From a virus, in IMG/VR virus record IMGVR_UViG_3300000233_000006, positions 78,550 to 127,910 of that record: a stretch of DNA of 49,361 nucleotides, one strand, 5' to 3'. Positions 17,636-46,393 of the stretch are shown here, in pieces. Every line of letters begins with the position of its first letter. The stretch's first letter is position 1. The notes beneath the pieces are model-generated. The model was not told the origin of the DNA. It saw only the letters and a program-made list of their open reading frames with translations, and did not search any database. Both the position numbers and the translations under genes were made by a program.

Positions 17636-17685
17636 AACTTTACCCCGGCTATTTTATGAAATACATTGTTTTGTAGGTGATACGA

Positions 17686-20600
17686 ATGTTTGGTTCAAAA
17701 AAACAAAAGACGATCGACCCGTCGAAGATTAATGACGGACTTGACTTTGATCTAGGCGACCTTGACGCAAGCGATGAAGAACTTAATCGGTTATTAGGTA
17801 ACGGTCGTCAGAATGGACGTAAGCCGACGGTTGCAACAGAATTTATCGGCGGCGCAAGTCGTGACTTTATTAGTGAAACCGTTAACTTTGGTAACATTAA
17901 TGACCAGATCATCAAAAAGATTTTGCCTAGCGATTATGGAACAATTCTAGATCGTTCTGACGCATATACGACACCACTCACAGAGATGTACACTGAGTCG
18001 GTTAAGACGATACGTCCTGCGGCTTATCGCCTTGCCACAACCGTTAACCGACTTGTTCCGAATGAACTCAAGACCTTAAAGAAGATTACGTCTTCAGTAA
18101 CAACTAAACTTTCTGACGATTCGACATATTCGTCATCTGATTCCCCAGAGTCGATTCGAGAAAATTCGATCAAGGCATCGCTTGCCGAAGTTTTTGATGT
18201 TCAGCGTCAAGTCGACCAACGTGAAAGAGCGCACGACCGTGCTGAAGGTCGGATCAAAGATGAGATCAACTTTAAAAACGAGCGTTTTAATCAATCTGTA
18301 TTCAGTGCGATCGAGAATAATACGTCTCGCGTTGCTCAGTACACGACAAGCGTTAATTCAGCGTTCCAGAGAAAGTCACTTGAGATTCAGTACCGTAGTT
18401 TCTTTATTCAGTCAGAAATGCTTGAGCATAATAAAAAGTACTACGAACTTTTTAAATCTCAAAATGAAAGTATTGTACGAAATACCGGGTTGCCCGATTA
18501 CCTTAAAATTACAACACCTGAGATGGTCGCTGAGGCGGCGGTACGTCGCGCGGTAGGCAACGTATCCGAATCGCTTTACGGTGAAGGCTCGGTGGTCTCA
18601 CGCTCAATTAAACGACTAAATAGAAAGGTTAAAAACTTTTCGATGGACGTTCGTGACTCACTTGAGTCAGGAACAACCGGCATACAGATGATGGAGGATC
18701 TAAGAGAGGACGACGAGAGCATCTCTAGGACAGCCGGTCGTGCCGTAGGTAAGGGTTTAGCCTACTCTCTTTTTGGTAAAATCGGAGACAAACTCAAAGA
18801 ATTCGACCTACTCGACAAACTTGACCAGCACACAAACGGTGCAGGAAAAAAAATACGTAATAAAATGTCTACTTTAGCCGACATGCTCAAAAACCCAACG
18901 GGTTATGCAGCCAAGGCCTTAGGTAGGGGTGGTTCACTCGAAGAGGATTATTCCGACGGTACTGCTCGTGGTATCGGTAAGTCCTTTGGACGCTTTTTCG
19001 CAGATTCGTTCAAAGAAAGCGCAAATACAAAAGTCACTGAAGGCCAGTCAATTACCGATTTAAATCGACCTGTTCCTTTTGACGTTGCGACACGCAAAAG
19101 TATCGTCACAGTTATTCCAAAATACCTTTCACATATTTTAAGAGAAGTAACCGCACTTCGTTTAGGTAAAGAACCCGAACTTTTAAAGTTCGATCATAAG
19201 TCAAATGATTTAATGCGTTCGAGCCAGATTACAAAAAACTTAACTCGAGATTTAGACGTTAATATTAGGACGTCAAGTTTAAGAAGTTCGTATAATGCCT
19301 TCTTTAAATACATGGAGCAAAAAGACAATAAAGGAAAGTTTGTTGTCAAACAAGAGAATCACTTCACACAACAAGAAAAGAAGTCGATTATAGAGACGTC
19401 GTTCATACTTCGTTTACGAGGTCATTTTACAGGGATCGAAAGTTTAGTCCAGCCAGGTCCTGGGCGTAAGCTGTTCCTTGAACGTTTAACCGCCAACGGC
19501 ATTAATAATAAAAAGGGATTCACTGACGTCACAAAGAAGATTAACTCTATCTTTGGTGTTAATCGACAGGGTCGGCGAATCGCAGATAAAAAACAACTTC
19601 AACAACGTAAAAACTTTAATGAAGTTGTTAATTCATTACCCGAAACTTTATCTAAGAGTTCAAGCGTTGCAGGAACATTGTCTGATCTTGGTCAGGACGA
19701 TAATCTAATCGATAGCGGATTCTTTAAGAAGAAAAAAGACGGTTCGTTTTATCTTGACGAAGATAAACTCGCACGTCAAGTTGGCGATCTTGAAGGCGAC
19801 GTTCAGCGTAAAAACGATTACGATGCCGACACAGAGCGTCTTAAGAACAATCCGTTAGGCATGAGAAATCGCGATAACATCGAACGTAACGACCGAGGGA
19901 TCCATCCAGGCTACAACGGACTACATGGTTTAAAGTCCAAGTCAGATGGCAAGGCACGCGGTGTCTTTGAACAAATGCTCGATTCAATTAACGCCATGCG
20001 TAAAATCATGGAAACCTGTTGGTGCATGAAGTCTGTTCACGGGAAGCTTGATGAGCAACTCTCCGATTTGAACAGCAATAAAATTCGAGACAACCTCGAT
20101 CGAAATAAGGGACATCAAGAACTCGACAGCGTTCTTTTAAATCAAAAAAATAACAGTCGTTCGGAAAGTGATGTCTTAAGACAGGACAAGATTAGACAAG
20201 ATAAAGAACGTAAAGGTATGGGGCGTCAGCGTAAGCTCACTAAAGACCGTGACGAACTCATTAAACTGTACGAAGAAACAAAAACTGTTTATGTAAACAT
20301 AGACACTTTGTCTAAGAAAGTTGAAGGCGTTTTACTACGTTTCAATCAAGAAAATGTCAATCTTAAAATAAAGAAACCTTATCAGATTGCTTTATCAAAA
20401 GCTAAGTCGGCTCGTAGTTCTGACTTCTTAAAGAGTTTTGATGAGTTAAAGAAACGTATCGAAAACATCGACGTAAACGCACCTTTCTCAACTGAAATCG
20501 ATAACTTACGTAAAGCGATTAAATTACGTCATAAAAATTTAACTTCGATACATAGTGAACTGGATGCGCTTGTTAAACGATCCGAAAAAGTTAGGCGGTC

Positions 20601-23600
20601 AGGACGTCGTACGACAACGTCTCGAGACAATGTTGAGGACACTCCAACGTCAATCGTTGACCAGACTGTACCCCCAAGTCCACCGCCACCAATAACCCCG
20701 ACAACACCTACTCCGTCAATAACCCCGACAACACCTACTCCAGGTTCTGGATTTGCTGAGGGCAGTAATTCTGTCACTCCACTTATAAATGGGTTTAACC
20801 ACGTCAAAAACAAGGTATCGAACCTCTTTACGCGCCCCACACAAAATAACATGGTTCAGCAAGACTTAGCTTCAGCACCTAATACTGCCGGTAAAACGCT
20901 GTCTGGTACAGCCAATAAAATATTGGCTGGTGTAGCGACTTATGGAGGTTTGTCTTTATTTGGGGCTGGAGCAGCTAACGCAGGTTCTTTAGGGACTTTA
21001 GCTTTTGAGCCAACAACTGGACTTCCATTACTCATAGCCCTAGGCCTGGCAGGCGCAGGCTATAAAATTTACAAGAATAAGAAAAAACAACGAGACATCG
21101 AAAAGGCAGCACTTCAAACACAACCAGGAGTTTCGGACGTACCGGCAAATGCCGAAGGTACGTTACAGAATATGTCTGGAAATACCGTGACAGGAAGTGT
21201 TGTTAACGCCGCAGGAACTGTTATTGACGGCGCATCAAAATTGTCGCAGAATGTTGCGAGAGGTATCAAGGATAAATTTAAAACCGTCGTTGGTGCATCT
21301 AAAGGTGCTTTAAATGAGGCTAGTAAACGACGCGATGATATCAAGTCTAAAATTAGTGAGTTCTCGGATAACAACACACTTCACGGTATCGATTTTGCTG
21401 CCGATCGTTTAATAAGTCAGGTTGCAGGAAGCATCAGTGAAAAAGCGCGTTCACGCGTTAAAGCGGCCCTGGTCAAAACGTATAAAAGCGCACAATCTAA
21501 AGGCGGCGATAAACTTGCGTTAGCCGCAATCAGTGCCGTTATATTGAGAACGTCTTTTACCACCGCAGGACTTCGTGAAGTTACTGAATGGACGGAGGAC
21601 GGTCGTCCTATTAAGTCACGCGTTAAAGATACTGTCAAGAATATTGCAGGTAATGTCAGGACGCGTTATCGGAATAGCGAGACTGTCGAACAGGCGCGTG
21701 AAGGTATTAAAAACGTTATTGAAAATAACGATAGAAGTATTATCCAGCGCGGCTTTCGTTTATTTAACCGAGGTCGCGAAAGCGACTTTATAAAAACACT
21801 GACTAATAAAAATGTCAACGTAAGTGAAAAAGCTTCAAGTATTCTTCAGCTTGTTAAGAATATTGAAATGACGGAACTGTTAAAGAAACTTATCCCTAAA
21901 AAGAAAAAGTTTAATGACAGAAATAACGACGGTCATCGAGATAATGCGTGGGACGCTAGTACGGGTACGGCCGCATCTGTCGGTCTAAAAGGTGTTGCTG
22001 CACGAGCAGCTACCGCCATACTTTCTCGCCCACTCATTGCTGCGGCAGCAGGACTTGCCGTAGCAGGCGTTGTTTCATGGTTATCTAATTTAAAATCTGG
22101 TGAATTTAAAGATGTAGTAGGTGAAACTTGGCATGGCGCTAAGAAACTTGCTAAAGGCGCCGTAAAAGGCGCCGGAAATTTAGCCGTAACAACAGGTGAA
22201 GTTTTTGAACAATGGGGTTTAACCCTAGGTCGAGGCATAAGAGATGTTGGCGGATGGGCGCTTGATAAGTCCTTAGATTCGCTACCTCTAATCGGCCATG
22301 TTTACAAGTACCAGAAAAATAAAGCAATGGAAGCTTTTAATGAAGGACGTTTTCTTCAATACGGTATTCGGATCAATGACCTCTCTAGCGTTCAACGTAT
22401 CCTCGAACTTGAAGCCTACATTATCGACGAACGTGTCGTCGACACAACTAACGGTAAAGTTCAAAAAGATCGAATTGATCAGGAAAAGTTGTTTAAGATA
22501 TTTGATATCGATAAAGACGACGTCAAAGGTCAAAGACGTTTTATACGCTGGTTTACCGGACGTTTCATAAAGGTCTTTAGATACCATGCGGTTGCACTCA
22601 GAACCATCAAAAAGGAATTTAGTGACTTTACATTACTTAAGTCCTTAAACAAAAAAGAAAAACTTGAATACTTTAATCGAGTCAAGTCGATAAGTGGTAT
22701 CCTTAATGTTTTTGAACTTCCATTTAACACCGATGAAAAAAATGATGTTACTGAAGAAGAGATCGATGCATGGTACCGTCAGGCGATTGACAAAGTTAAA
22801 AGTCAAAAAGACGATCCTGAAAAAAAGAAAAAAGACGGTACGTCAACAAATAAACCTGAAGATAAAGTAGGTAAAGAAAAAGACGACTATATCAAAGGTC
22901 AAAATCGTAAAAAGGTACTTGATGATCTTGAAGCTAAACGCGCGTCGGTCGAAGCGACGCGAAGAATAAAGGCGGAAGATCAGAAGGTATCTAAAGAGAA
23001 CGCGTCACGTCGCCAGGCCGAATTTAACAAGGCGGCTTCTGATATTTCTTCAGGGAATGTTCCGTCACCTCAAGCACCGTCTAGCGTTGCTTCAATGACA
23101 GGTAACACACTCCTTGCCTTACCTAACACCACCGTTCCAGCCTTAGACAAAAATCCGAACGGTTATGAAAAAGCCCTTGAAGAGTTTGCGATTAAGAACG
23201 GTATTCAAAAAGGACCTGAGCTTGCGGCTTTTATGGCCAACGCTTCTGTTGAAACAGGTCAATTTAAACATCTTACTGAAAAAGGTAAGAACGCAGGTTC
23301 ACAATACGAAGGTCGCAAGGTCTTAGGTAACACTGAACCTGGCGATGGAGAGAAGTTTAAAGGTCGCGGGTTCATGCAACTTACCGGACGTTATAATTAC
23401 GGCGTTATCGGGAATGCGCTCGGTGTAGATTTAGTCAATAATCCAGACCTTGTATCAGAACCTGAAATGGCTATGAAAACTGCCGTCGCCTATTGGAAAC
23501 TACATAATGGCGGAAAGATTCCTGAAGCAGCGCGTTCGGGAGACTTCAAGAAGTCTGTCTATTATGTCAATGGCGGTTACAACGCGTTTAATGAACGCCA

Positions 23601-24825
23601 GGGCCAGTACGACAAATATCTTCAGATGTATAATTCTGGAAATACTGTCGCGGCATCGGCACAGTCGACTCCATCGGCACAGTCGACTCCATCGGCACAG
23701 TCAGGTGCACCTACCTTTAGTATAGGTCAGCGACCTTCAAATGACCTTATTATGCCCCAAACTAACGGAACACTTGCGATGTCGCAGTCACTTGTTCCAA
23801 CTTCAGTACCTACCGTTGTAGGTAATCAAACTGTCGCCACAAATACATCACTTGTGCAACCGAGCGTTCTTAAACCTGTTGCTCAAAACACAGATACAGC
23901 AAAATTACCAGAAGAAGTTCTGAACCTACGTGTTAAGGACACTGACGGCAAAGTTAAGACACTTAAACAACTAGGTGTCACAACCTATGACGAACTCTCC
24001 AAGCGTGGAGGACAAGCGTTTGCAGGCGGTTATAATGACCCTAGCGTAACGTATGCAACGTCACTTATTCAAAAAGAACTGGGCGATAATTTTGGTCGTG
24101 TCACGGCACAAAACGACCATTACCATAAGGTTAACGCACCCAGTTCAGAACATACAAAAGGTTATAAGACGGACTATACCGTCAATGACAAAGACTATAA
24201 AAAGGCACATGCTGACACCGTAGCAGCCATGACAAAATACGGGTTGGTTGAAGGTAAAGACTTTAAAATCATTTCGGCACCTCACGGCACAGGTGGACAT
24301 ATTGATTTTAAGTTAACTGAAAGCGGTCGAACCAAAATGAGAACTCTTATGGGTAATCAGGAGGCTCAACCTCAACCTCAAACGACTCAAGAAGCAGGTA
24401 TGACGCCAGCTCAACCAGCGTTACCGATCACCCAGGTTCCTAGCCTAGGTCAGGCCGTACCGCAGGCGCCAGTATCTAATGCCCAGAATAATGGGGCATC
24501 CTTGCCGAATGCAGTCGGTAATGCAACGACACCCGGGATGGGTGGGTTTAGACCACCCATGTATGTCCCGCAACCTAATGTAGCGACGCAGTCTCAACAA
24601 GTCATGCCTTCTTTTGAGCCCATGCAAAAGGCAGTATCTGAGATGACAGGTGTTGCACGTGAACAGCTTGGTGTACTCCAGCAAATTCGAGAGGGTATCA
24701 ATCAGCTCGGAGATAAACTAGGCAGTCAGGACGTGATGTCTCAGGAACCTAAACAAACCCCTGTAAAACAATCGCGCCCCGCAGAAATGCCTAAACCCGC
24801 CATAAGTGTGAGTAATTCAATCTAA
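17686..24825 (+). CDS. Giant virion lysin with GH19-like and M15 peptidase-like domains (position of phiKZ gp181)
   Basis: 2379 residues from ATG 17686. An in-frame GTG at 17677 falls on the AGGTGA ribosome site, which is 5 nt before the ATG, so the ATG is chosen. Order: charged coiled-coil-like N-terminal half (about 1-980); Pro/Thr linker (about 996-1024); Gly/Ala hydrophobic segments near 1078-1130 and 1438-1465 that could insert in membranes; Lys/Glu-rich helices; a GH19 chitinase/lysozyme-like domain (about 1820-1980) with catalytic-type Glu1856 in NASVETGQ and FKGRGFMQLTGRYNY; a Ser/Gln linker; and an M15-like peptidase domain (about 2090-2230) with SEHTKGYKTD (His2156, Asp2163) and GGHIDF (His2205). 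It probably cuts peptidoglycan glycan and peptide bonds during DNA entry. It lies divergent from the RNAP genes. Confidence 0.87.
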   Translation: MFGSKKQKTIDPSKINDGLDFDLGDLDASDEELNRLLGNGRQNGRKPTVATEFIGGASRDFISETVNFGNINDQIIKKILPSDYGTILDRSDAYTTPLTEMYTESVKTIRPAAYRLATTVNRLVPNELKTLKKITSSVTTKLSDDSTYSSSDSPESIRENSIKASLAEVFDVQRQVDQRERAHDRAEGRIKDEINFKNERFNQSVFSAIENNTSRVAQYTTSVNSAFQRKSLEIQYRSFFIQSEMLEHNKKYYELFKSQNESIVRNTGLPDYLKITTPEMVAEAAVRRAVGNVSESLYGEGSVVSRSIKRLNRKVKNFSMDVRDSLESGTTGIQMMEDLREDDESISRTAGRAVGKGLAYSLFGKIGDKLKEFDLLDKLDQHTNGAGKKIRNKMSTLADMLKNPTGYAAKALGRGGSLEEDYSDGTARGIGKSFGRFFADSFKESANTKVTEGQSITDLNRPVPFDVATRKSIVTVIPKYLSHILREVTALRLGKEPELLKFDHKSNDLMRSSQITKNLTRDLDVNIRTSSLRSSYNAFFKYMEQKDNKGKFVVKQENHFTQQEKKSIIETSFILRLRGHFTGIESLVQPGPGRKLFLERLTANGINNKKGFTDVTKKINSIFGVNRQGRRIADKKQLQQRKNFNEVVNSLPETLSKSSSVAGTLSDLGQDDNLIDSGFFKKKKDGSFYLDEDKLARQVGDLEGDVQRKNDYDADTERLKNNPLGMRNRDNIERNDRGIHPGYNGLHGLKSKSDGKARGVFEQMLDSINAMRKIMETCWCMKSVHGKLDEQLSDLNSNKIRDNLDRNKGHQELDSVLLNQKNNSRSESDVLRQDKIRQDKERKGMGRQRKLTKDRDELIKLYEETKTVYVNIDTLSKKVEGVLLRFNQENVNLKIKKPYQIALSKAKSARSSDFLKSFDELKKRIENIDVNAPFSTEIDNLRKAIKLRHKNLTSIHSELDALVKRSEKVRRSGRRTTTSRDNVEDTPTSIVDQTVPPSPPPPITPTTPTPSITPTTPTPGSGFAEGSNSVTPLINGFNHVKNKVSNLFTRPTQNNMVQQDLASAPNTAGKTLSGTANKILAGVATYGGLSLFGAGAANAGSLGTLAFEPTTGLPLLIALGLAGAGYKIYKNKKKQRDIEKAALQTQPGVSDVPANAEGTLQNMSGNTVTGSVVNAAGTVIDGASKLSQNVARGIKDKFKTVVGASKGALNEASKRRDDIKSKISEFSDNNTLHGIDFAADRLISQVAGSISEKARSRVKAALVKTYKSAQSKGGDKLALAAISAVILRTSFTTAGLREVTEWTEDGRPIKSRVKDTVKNIAGNVRTRYRNSETVEQAREGIKNVIENNDRSIIQRGFRLFNRGRESDFIKTLTNKNVNVSEKASSILQLVKNIEMTELLKKLIPKKKKFNDRNNDGHRDNAWDASTGTAASVGLKGVAARAATAILSRPLIAAAAGLAVAGVVSWLSNLKSGEFKDVVGETWHGAKKLAKGAVKGAGNLAVTTGEVFEQWGLTLGRGIRDVGGWALDKSLDSLPLIGHVYKYQKNKAMEAFNEGRFLQYGIRINDLSSVQRILELEAYIIDERVVDTTNGKVQKDRIDQEKLFKIFDIDKDDVKGQRRFIRWFTGRFIKVFRYHAVALRTIKKEFSDFTLLKSLNKKEKLEYFNRVKSISGILNVFELPFNTDEKNDVTEEEIDAWYRQAIDKVKSQKDDPEKKKKDGTSTNKPEDKVGKEKDDYIKGQNRKKVLDDLEAKRASVEATRRIKAEDQKVSKENASRRQAEFNKAASDISSGNVPSPQAPSSVASMTGNTLLALPNTTVPALDKNPNGYEKALEEFAIKNGIQKGPELAAFMANASVETGQFKHLTEKGKNAGSQYEGRKVLGNTEPGDGEKFKGRGFMQLTGRYNYGVIGNALGVDLVNNPDLVSEPEMAMKTAVAYWKLHNGGKIPEAARSGDFKKSVYYVNGGYNAFNERQGQYDKYLQMYNSGNTVAASAQSTPSAQSTPSAQSGAPTFSIGQRPSNDLIMPQTNGTLAMSQSLVPTSVPTVVGNQTVATNTSLVQPSVLKPVAQNTDTAKLPEEVLNLRVKDTDGKVKTLKQLGVTTYDELSKRGGQAFAGGYNDPSVTYATSLIQKELGDNFGRVTAQNDHYHKVNAPSSEHTKGYKTDYTVNDKDYKKAHADTVAAMTKYGLVEGKDFKIISAPHGTGGHIDFKLTESGRTKMRTLMGNQEAQPQPQTTQEAGMTPAQPALPITQVPSLGQAVPQAPVSNAQNNGASLPNAVGNATTPGMGGFRPPMYVPQPNVATQSQQVMPSFEPMQKAVSEMTGVAREQLGVLQQIREGINQLGDKLGSQDVMSQEPKQTPVKQSRPAEMPKPAISVSNSI
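20691..20741 (+). repeat. 27-bp tandem repeat coding the Pro/Thr linker of the lysin
   Basis: The 24-nt block AATAACCCCGACAACACCTA-CTCC occurs at 20691-20714 and again, identical, at 20718-20741. It encodes ITPTTPTPS repeats. Exact identity at DNA level points to recent duplication. Confidence 0.85.
23656..23703 (+). repeat. 18-bp tandem repeat coding a Ser-Ala-Gln-Ser-Thr-Pro linker
   Basis: TCGGCACAGTCGACTCCA is present twice exactly (23656-23673, 23674-23691), then a partial third copy. It encodes SAQSTP repeats in the linker between the GH19 and M15-like domains. The copy number is likely variable between isolates. Confidence 0.88.
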
Positions 24826-37275: not shown

Positions 37276-37331
37276 ATAAGGACTCCATGTTATGAATGCT
37301 CAAAGCCTGTGTTAATTTAAGGAGAATCCGA

Positions 37332-38630
37332 ATGAAGCAAGTAAAAGGCTTTTTGACGATTAACAATCTTGTTTTAAATGACAGCGTCGCCGTAAGTCTT
37401 CTTGGAGAAATATCGACGTGGTCACTGACTTATACCGTCGACCGCAGAAGTTATACTGACGAAAACTTTAGCGGGTTTGCGCTTGAAAGTTTATTCTCGT
37501 TAGATGACCAAGGTCAGCAAATCGAATTAAGTTCGGATGTTGCGACGCATATTTTTGACTTAAGTCAAAAACTCATCACGTTTTCTGAAACGTATTCTGG
37601 TAATGTCAATAAAGACGATATTGCCTTTTATTTGGAGAGCGCGTACACAGGTTCGGTGACCGACGTTATTCCTGGCAATATTGTCGCGACACCTGGTATT
37701 GCCTTACCTGAATTTATTCAGTGGAAACACGTTCCTTCGGATACGTTCGTTCGTATCTGGTATTCGGACGACGCGTTTAAAAATGATTTCGATGAATACA
37801 AAATCGTTGTTGTCCCGCCCTTTGATAACATCGACGACTTCTTTCAAAACCCAGAAATCGTCAAGCAACGTCTGGAGGCCATGACCCCCGAAACGTATTT
37901 TGGACGTGTAGAGCGATACAAATCATACAATCCGGAAACGTATATCAAAACAATCGAAGCGACATACGTTCGAAGCCATGTCAATCAGCCAACGTATACG
38001 GCCGAATCCTATTGGTCAGTCATCATCTACGGTGAGTACGGAAACAATATTGATGCGATCAAAGATGCGATCACCGAATACATTCTCGCCAATACAACGC
38101 ATACCGAAGATGAATGGTTCGCTATTTTACCTGAACTGTTTGAACGCACTGAATTTGTTTTTGTTCCTTCGTACCATCGCGAAGCGATCCCTAATATGAC
38201 CATTATGAGTGGCGTCTTTTCGCCACTTACGCCTGTGATTCAAGACAGTCTTCTTGCAAAACAATACGCAATGTTTTATCCAGAACAACATACGGTTAAC
38301 GTCATGTCTGTTTTAGCGTTCCCGTACCGATCATTACTACATTACGTTATTGGAGGATATCGGAATCGCGAATCGAAGTTTTTCCTCAATGACTTCCTAC
38401 CTGATTTCATTAACGTTAGTACATCCTCACTTGACTTTAACCGAATGTCTTTGGTGACGAAGGAATGGGTTCTTAAAATGGAACGCGCGATTCAGCTTGC
38501 TGAAGACGTAACAACAATCGACGTTGTAAGAAAACCTTATCGTAAAGCTTATCGACTAGGACGCATTTACATTGCGTTTGTTCACGATAATGTCCAATAT
38601 CTGGTGCTTACACAGTCTTCACGAGACTAA
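37332..38630 (+). CDS. Baseplate/tail-type structural protein, 432 aa
   Basis: 432 residues from ATG 37332, which has AAGGAG 7 nt upstream; the in-frame ATG at 37296 has no ribosome site and is rejected. The N-terminus is beta-rich (VKGFLTINNLVLNDSVAVSL, ISTWSLTYTVDRRSY) and the middle is aromatic (TPETYFGRVERYKSYNPETY). The C-terminal part includes FPYRSLLHYVIGGYRNRESK. No catalytic motif. It is followed after 4 nt by the Cys-repeat protein gene, and both are probably late tail components. The overall character (Tyr/Phe-rich beta protein, no Cys clusters) fits a baseplate wedge or fibre-attachment protein; specific identity unknown. Confidence 0.75.
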   Translation: MKQVKGFLTINNLVLNDSVAVSLLGEISTWSLTYTVDRRSYTDENFSGFALESLFSLDDQGQQIELSSDVATHIFDLSQKLITFSETYSGNVNKDDIAFYLESAYTGSVTDVIPGNIVATPGIALPEFIQWKHVPSDTFVRIWYSDDAFKNDFDEYKIVVVPPFDNIDDFFQNPEIVKQRLEAMTPETYFGRVERYKSYNPETYIKTIEATYVRSHVNQPTYTAESYWSVIIYGEYGNNIDAIKDAITEYILANTTHTEDEWFAILPELFERTEFVFVPSYHREAIPNMTIMSGVFSPLTPVIQDSLLAKQYAMFYPEQHTVNVMSVLAFPYRSLLHYVIGGYRNRESKFFLNDFLPDFINVSTSSLDFNRMSLVTKEWVLKMERAIQLAEDVTTIDVVRKPYRKAYRLGRIYIAFVHDNVQYLVLTQSSRD

Positions 38631-38634
38631 GTCC

Positions 38635-39636
38635 ATGAGTACGTTAGATTACCTACCCTTTACACCGACCATCGGTGTTAAAGGATCGTTTATTGTCGAC
38701 CCTATTTTTAGCAATCGCGTTATCGCTAATAAAGAATATACCATCGTCGAATTACGTCAACTTGTTGAATTGGTGAAGAGTCGTGAAAACGTTCTTAACA
38801 CCGTATATATTTCACAAGGCTTAACTCACGATGATTACGTTGACGGGATCGCCAACGGCGCACTCATTATTTCTTTAAGATCGATTGATGACGTCATTGT
38901 AAAAATTCCGTCAAACTATCTTCTTGGCGTACCTGCTAAACAAGGTATAAAATATCAAAACATCGGCATGTCGGTCGACATCGGATCCATGCCCTTTGAC
39001 TTTAACTTCGAGTGGGTTCGTTACGAAGTTGAAGAATTGTTTAAAAAACTTATCGGTGCGCAAGTCAGTACTGTTAAACTAGAAAACTCACCTATCTTTT
39101 ATTTAGATCGTGAGGAGGACATTGTCTTAAGACATGATCTAAAACAAACCATTACGAACTATCCAAATCCGGAAGATCGTATCCTCGAACTTGAAACAAT
39201 CAATGCAGCGCTCACTAATAAGCTCATCGCACTTGAAAATTTCATATCGCTTAGCGGAACCGCACTTGATCTTTGTAACCTTTGTCCAGAGTGCCCAGAC
39301 TGTCCGGAGATACCGGACTGCCCGGACTGTCCGGACTGCCCGGAGATACCAGACTGCCCGGACTGCCCAGGCCCTGACCCCATCATAGACCCGATCCCTG
39401 ACCCAACGCCAGATCCTGATATCGATATCATTGTTGATCCAGGATGTACCGATACAAAACGTATCGCTTACTTTAAACTTAACATGTCGATTGAACGAAT
39501 GATTGAGGATAGTGCACGCGCATGTTGTGACGATATTAATGTTGACGCTGACGTTGATATCGCTTATAAAGTTGTGCCTGACTGCGAAACAGTCTTTGTC
39601 GTTAGAGACATCAATACTGACGACTGTTGTTGTTAA
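38635..39636 (+). CDS. Tail/virion protein with Cys-Pro-Asp period-3 repeat, 333 aa
   Basis: 333 residues from ATG 38635, 4 nt after the upstream stop; an earlier TTG would overlap the upstream gene by 58 nt and is rejected. Residues 1-200 are a mixed globular domain (IVELRQLVELVKSRENVLNT). Residues 214-245 are a repeat in which Cys recurs every third residue with Pro following: CPECPDCPEIPDCPDCPDCP and on to Cys244, nine Cys in all and Ile replacing Cys twice. Pro/Asp dipeptides follow (PDPIIDPIPDPTPDPD), then a compact Cys-containing domain (ACCDDINVDADVDI) ending DDCCC. Extracellular disulfides or metal binding are likely for a particle surface protein. Ends in a strong terminator. Confidence 0.8.
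   Translation: MSTLDYLPFTPTIGVKGSFIVDPIFSNRVIANKEYTIVELRQLVELVKSRENVLNTVYISQGLTHDDYVDGIANGALIISLRSIDDVIVKIPSNYLLGVPAKQGIKYQNIGMSVDIGSMPFDFNFEWVRYEVEELFKKLIGAQVSTVKLENSPIFYLDREEDIVLRHDLKQTITNYPNPEDRILELETINAALTNKLIALENFISLSGTALDLCNLCPECPDCPEIPDCPDCPDCPEIPDCPDCPGPDPIIDPIPDPTPDPDIDIIVDPGCTDTKRIAYFKLNMSIERMIEDSARACCDDINVDADVDIAYKVVPDCETVFVVRDINTDDCCC
39289..39372 (+). repeat. In-frame 9-bp-type repeats coding Cys-Pro-Asp/Glu units
   Basis: Variants of TGCCCGGAC alternate with a GAGATACCGGAC unit about ten times. Synonymous changes (TGC/TGT, CCC/CCG) are already present, so it is older than the linker repeats of the lysin. Confidence 0.85.
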
Positions 39637-39642
39637 AAAAAA

Positions 39643-39688
39643 AGAGATAGTGGTGCCCTGGGTAGCTACCCAGGACACCACTATCTCT
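39643..39688. terminator. Bidirectional hairpin terminator
   Basis: About 23-bp stem with one mismatch (AGAGATAGTGGTG and CCTGGGTAG arms), preceded by an A run. It separates the Cys-repeat gene from the convergent 205-aa gene. Confidence 0.92.
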
Positions 39689-45988: not shown

Positions 45989-46393
45989 TTATGTGAACGT
46001 AAAGACGATGTCGTAAAAACATTCACCACCCCAAACATTTAGCTCCTTTTCTAAAACGGTAATGTGGCCTCGGAGCTCAAAGAATCGAATGATCTTCCAT
46101 GACGTTGATTCTCTTGCGTTGAGCTCGACTTTACGTTTCTTATAGAACGCTTTAAAATGTCGAGCAAGATCATAGATCTTGGCCAGTGTTAAAGGGTTAA
46201 TCGACGCCAGGTCGACGATTTCGTGCTTAGTATAAACACAATAACCTCCATCCCAGACGATGGTGTGAGCCTTCCCCTCACAGAAGTCGCACAACTCCTT
46301 GTAATTGCGACATTGGTAAAGGGATTGGAATTCTCTCGGATAAACTTCCGTTTCTATTCGAGAGATATGCTCAAGGACATCTTTTTCTTTCAT
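45989..46393 (-). CDS. Probable GNAT-fold protein, partner of the 598-aa protein
   Basis: 134 residues. The order of elements suggests a GNAT (acetyltransferase) fold. An N-terminal helix IETEVYPREFQSLYQCRNYK is followed by strands HTIVWDGGYCVYTKHEIVDL (beta3-beta4 with the E-I-V-D-L strand), a helix, then VELNARESTSWKIIRFFELR leading into GHITVLEKEL, the typical last GNAT strand-helix motif. The acetyl-CoA pyrophosphate loop (Q/RxxGxG/A) is not obvious, so activity is uncertain. GAGG before ATG 46393, overlapping the 598-residue gene by 4 nt, so the two proteins are made together. Confidence 0.6.
   Translation of the reverse strand: MKEKDVLEHISRIETEVYPREFQSLYQCRNYKELCDFCEGKAHTIVWDGGYCVYTKHEIVDLASINPLTLAKIYDLARHFKAFYKKRKVELNARESTSWKIIRFFELRGHITVLEKELNVWGGECFYDIVFTFT

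Follow-up and report, generated by a model that had tools for sequence, protein, structure and literature searches.

The window analysed here is a stretch of 49,361 nucleotides, positions 78,550 to 127,910 of the IMG/VR record IMGVR_UViG_3300000233_000006, a 127.9-kb record from a phiKZ-like phage in which a tail sheath, phage RNA polymerase subunits and related genes are present. The gene of interest runs from an ATG at 38635 to a stop at 39636, and it encodes a protein whose conserved baseplate domain is followed by an unusual cysteine-rich extension. The features of the locus are as follows.

37296..38630, plus strand: upstream neighbour, a homologue of PHIKZ157 (phrog_3293, virion structural; match to 9xqd_J, E=1.3e-53).
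38635..39636, plus strand: the whole gene, 333 amino acids, with a DUF7194 domain (E=1e-30; phrog_3241, E=1.1e-30) and a C-terminal extension.
38656..39249, plus strand: DUF7194 baseplate domain, residues 8-205, without Cys.
39169..39273, plus strand: C-terminal helix, residues 179-213, from heptads in the sequence and a helix in the AlphaFold2 model.
39274..39372, plus strand: period-3 Cys array, residues 214-246, CNLCPECPDCPEIPDCPDCPDCPEIPDCPDCPG.
39292..39327, plus strand: first copy of a 36-bp duplication, CPDCPEIPDCPD.
39328..39363, plus strand: second copy of the duplication, CPDCPEIPDCPD.
39373..39441, plus strand: acidic, Asp/Pro-rich segment, residues 247-269, PDPIIDPIPDPTPDPDIDIIVDP, for which AlphaFold2 gave no confident structure.
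39442..39633, plus strand: small terminal part, residues 270-333, with C271, C297, C298, C317 and a CCC end, and a helix at 274-297 predicted with low confidence.
39643..39688, no strand assigned: terminator-like hairpin with a T run at one end, between convergent genes (-39.7 kcal/mol, z -7.9).

The gene directly follows the PHIKZ157 homologue, an order common to most of the phages viewed, and in SPN3US the counterpart of that upstream gene encodes gp203, a tail protein that is essential (PMC5105663). The hairpin, which comes after the stop at 39636, has a 20-bp stem and carries its T run on the minus strand. Elsewhere in the window, 17677-24825 (plus strand) encodes a 2382-aa tail-fibre-like protein (phrog_3201) in which a GH19 chitinase/endolysin-like domain occupies roughly residues 1737-2017.

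Profile, phmmer and Foldseek searches all connected the N-terminal domain to the DUF7194 family and to PHIKZ161. The match to DUF7194 reached 107.2 bits, against a curated cut-off of 27, which places the protein in the family. The closest solved protein is PHIKZ161 in entry 9xqs (phmmer E=4.6e-11; family profile E=2.5e-62), titled 'Structure of the inner peripheral region in the phage phiKZ baseplate complex', and further homologues in the PDB are the 'Inner Baseplate Protein gp187' of 11lx and the 'Vertex binding complex protein gp66' of 36za. The labels that 36za gives to homologues ('vertex binding complex', 'capsid decorator', 'tail terminator') conflict with the baseplate labels of 9xqs and 11lx. 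An AlphaFold2 model built from an alignment with 14 homologues predicted the core well (block mean pLDDT of 89-96 over residues 11-100), compared with a pLDDT of 33 for a prediction run without an alignment, and the best PDB matches of the model in Foldseek were 9xqs_F (E=2.1e-13) and 9xqs_E (E=7.8e-13), both with a probability of 1.00, so that the family fold was recovered. Whole-chain TM scores against the 9xqs chains were low (0.27/0.44, rmsd 14 A), so domain and helix do not share their overall arrangement with that structure. In addition, chains N, Q and S of 9xqs (131-135 residues) weakly matched the DUF7194 model, which suggests that related folds may occur in the same baseplate region. 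Because the protein is homologous to a solved phiKZ baseplate protein, it is very likely a virion protein, as the earlier note had assumed, and this homology together with the gene surroundings argues for a location in the baseplate.

The proteins of this family (PHIKZ161/DUF7194/phrog_3241, as in 9xqs, 11lx and 36za) share with ours an N-terminal domain of about 200 aa, a coiled-coil end and a position after the PHIKZ157 homologue; however, the members examined stop at the coiled coil and contain 0-3 Cys, whereas the present protein continues for another 128 aa with 16 Cys. Our survey covered 24 named phages (FLC9 included) and 18 IMG/VR loci, some of them near-identical or from the same phage. 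Of the 43 other family members (not all distinct), 42 end at the coiled coil, with lengths of 194-215 aa, and the only longer proteins among those examined are the present one (333 aa) and gp64 of Burkholderia phage FLC9 (426 aa; L003:3974-5254). The latter likewise has a long addition in the same place, but this module spans about 210 aa, contains one Cys and lacks a CPD rod, and its similarities are to parts of larger structural proteins of the virion (phrog_10080, 5e-17; phrog_19943, 2e-10). Judging from these two cases, the C-terminal end of the DUF7194 protein looks like an attachment place for extra modules, and a conserved subunit of the jumbo-phage baseplate would thus be able to take on new modules there. 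Concanavalin-A-like domains occur in the products of the genes immediately downstream in SURPRISE13 and FLC8.

The helix that ends the family domain bears heptads in residues 183-204, with I183, N190, L197 and I204 at the 'a' positions and L186, L193 and L200 at the 'd' positions. In GCN4 variants, a parallel two-stranded coil is marked by Ile in the 'a' and Leu in the 'd' positions together with a buried Asn, and the domain appears by its sequence to end in a coiled coil with such a GCN4-like dimer signature. AlphaFold2 predicted the helix over residues 179-215, with a pLDDT of about 85-91 over 181-200 and lower values after, and G208 may interrupt the heptads. In the deposited entries, the chains of the DUF7194 homologue and of the PHIKZ182 homologue number 4:2 (9xqs), 2:1 (11lx) and 12:6 (36za), which fits two DUF7194 chains per wedge-like unit. 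A trimer is therefore not favoured, given the dimer-like heptads and chain counts of two per unit in three depositions; the partners of the helix might instead be other baseplate helices.

All 16 Cys of the protein lie within residues 206-333, a 128-aa extension composed of a CPD rod, the Asp/Pro segment and a small tail. Nine of them, at 214, 217, 220, 223, 229, 232, 235, 241 and 244, stand in a single period-3 phase, and this regularity, which the earlier note had pointed out, is real: in 20,000 shuffles of the 128-aa extension, the number of same-phase Cys within 31 residues never rose above 8, and elsewhere in the 127.9-kb record no stretch of 31 residues holds more than four Cys. Cys makes up 0.70% of residues record-wide versus 16 of 128 in the extension; a 134-aa ORF at 45989-46393 (minus strand), with 5 Cys, ranks second for Cys content in the record. 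Several details of that description could be refined. The array starts at 39274 (the C214 codon is 39274-39276), one codon before the position of 39277 given there, and Pro follows eight of the nine Cys rather than all of them, C214 being followed by Asn (CNL); Ile does take the Cys place twice, at 226 and 238, and the protein does end in CCC. Each unit has Asp or Glu in third place; only at the ends of the array do Leu and Gly stand there instead. A collagen-like triple helix was rejected since Gly is not found at every third residue: the third places hold Cys or Ile, and Gly stands only at 246.

At the core of the array, a 12-residue unit, CPDCPEIPDCPD, stands twice in a row. Between its two 36-bp copies there are four base differences, each a synonymous transition that leaves the amino acid unchanged, and the neutral probability of this pattern is 0.0014 if any change is allowed and 0.0087 if only transitions are. 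That only synonymous differences separate the copies suggests selection on the array residues, although four changes are a small number.

Relatives of the extension were sought at several levels. With tblastn against phages, neither the 126-aa extension at E<=1 nor the 68-aa terminal part at E<=10 found a relative, and the 29-aa repeat gave no phage match, although the low-complexity filter probably masked this last query. A pattern search of IMG/VR likewise found no relative of the extension. Neither Pfam nor PHROGs profiles, metal-binding families included, matched the extension significantly; a weak Pfam match was Trypan_PARP (E=0.67), and the top match of the repeat in the PDB was the Cys-rich DUF1610 protein 6ydh (E=0.16, not significant).

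We consider it about an even chance that the protein is a conserved phiKZ-type inner baseplate subunit with a lineage-specific C-terminal stalk, perhaps locked by inter-chain disulfides; the baseplate family is known, and the kind of C-terminal stalk would be new. Two chains would lie side by side through the family coiled coil, from which the acidic Cys-Pro-Asp rod would lead on, its 31 residues spanning about 9 nm if they adopt a polyproline-II (PPII) helix, and the rod and the Asp/Pro-rich segment would then lead to the small terminal part, so that the extension could serve as a stalk or tether holding an extra module out from the baseplate. Our preference for an extended stalk draws on the family domain and its baseplate location, the dimer-like heptads and the chain counts, the PPII geometry, the confinement of all 16 Cys to the extension, the sign of selection on the array residues, the module added to FLC9 gp64, the apparent linker role of short CPx arrays in unrelated proteins and the baseplate disulfides of phage Milano. 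The EP repeats of trypanosome procyclin and the Pro-rich stalks of TonB type resemble the present rod in being acidic, proline-rich extended stalks but contain no cysteine, and no significant Pfam match connects them with it.

In an ideal PPII helix, our computation places successive Cys (CB) 9.2 A apart, and the Cys face drifts by 18 degrees at phi/psi -75/145 and by about 95-100 at -75/150 or -65/140. Pro at every third residue is compatible with a PPII helix, and in an ideal one the nine Cys would stand roughly on one face, as the earlier note suggested, but AlphaFold2 gave residues 223-276, and also 297-333, a pLDDT below 50. At a spacing of 9 A, successive Cys within one straight chain are too far apart to be joined by a disulfide or to bind a common metal, and a ladder would therefore need side-by-side chains. 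The inter-chain ladder put forward in the earlier note would hold in this respect, with two chains more likely than the trimer whose modelling was advised there. Speculatively, facing Cys of adjacent chains might pair in the oxidising surroundings after lysis and lock the stalk; both the ladder and its timing are speculative. We regard as rather doubtful the full form of this idea, in which two parallel CPD strands in PPII form, registered by a dimeric coiled coil, zip by inter-chain disulfides outside the reducing cell into a stalk on a contractile-tail baseplate whose rigidity is set by redox state, and the Ile residues at 226 and 238 are not what a strict ladder would predict. The extension is a candidate for a stalk under redox control that can be put to the test. 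If true, the disulfide ladder would add to virions a covalent building element not described before, and a simple design for a rod.

The low pLDDT of the rod and end part fits disorder equally well, and an alternative that we judge somewhat unlikely is a disordered low-complexity tail, arisen by repeat slippage, whose cysteines have no specific use. The tandem 36-bp duplication, the locally high G+C (0.59-0.65 per codon position in the array vs 0.416 overall in the genome) and the presence of the extension only in this phage, among the collections searched, are in keeping with such an origin. However, the few differences between the copies are all synonymous, codon usage indicates coding beyond the repeat, and the Cys have been retained in a phage otherwise poor in this residue.

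An unlikely reading is that zinc, iron or an iron-sulfur cluster is held by the overlapping CxxC motifs, which would fold into a compact knot, in place of a rod, and so stabilise the attachment or tip. CPxC is a common metal knuckle, the top PDB match, non-significant as it is, was to a Cys-rich protein, and the reducing cytoplasm in which the phage assembles suits metal binding before lysis. In contrast, Cys spaced as in a straight PPII helix are too far apart to chelate one ion, units that all contain Pro and Asp/Glu are ill suited to compact knuckles, and no metal-binding family was matched. It is highly improbable that the fusion arose through an error of sequencing or assembly, or that the true coding strand is the reverse one, reading a collagen-like GQSGQSGIS: a 90-aa reverse ORF does exist (39159-39431, minus strand), the repeat scores higher for codon usage in reverse frames, and most family members end where the extension starts, but the forward frame is open from the conserved domain to the stop just ahead of the hairpin and has the best codon score past the repeat (0.133 vs <= -0.046), and the reverse ORF, rejected on this codon usage and the conserved sense-strand domain, would also need to be coding over the conserved coiled coil.

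Our literature search found no paper describing period-3 Cys-Pro repeats, in agreement with the earlier note, whose author knew of no virion protein described with such a ladder. Disulfide-crosslinked baseplate proteins are known from the contractile tail of Agrobacterium phage Milano (PMC10811340), which provides a precedent for inter-chain disulfides between baseplate proteins; however, these involve single paired Cys in folded, different proteins with 1.4% Cys overall and no period-3 Cys-Pro array. The search for similar repeats in other phages, advised at the outset, did find CPx arrays in unrelated phage and bacterial proteins (L007, L012, L015, L019, L021, L099 and L167), none of them a DUF7194 protein. 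When DNA is searched for CPD repeats, false frames such as the antisense GQSGQSGIS easily arise, and many matches in bacterial genomes, which look like non-coding frames in GC-rich DNA, were not counted as proteins. The array of L099 follows a hydrophobic segment, that of L019 neighbours a CHAP lysin domain, that of L167 occurs in a protein with an Ig-like Big_2 domain and that of L015 lies within a GGGG linker; the longest other credible array (L007:2-988, minus strand; CPDIPDCPDCPDCPDCPDCPDCPECPDC) also has Ile in one Cys place. These arrays look like independent linkers.
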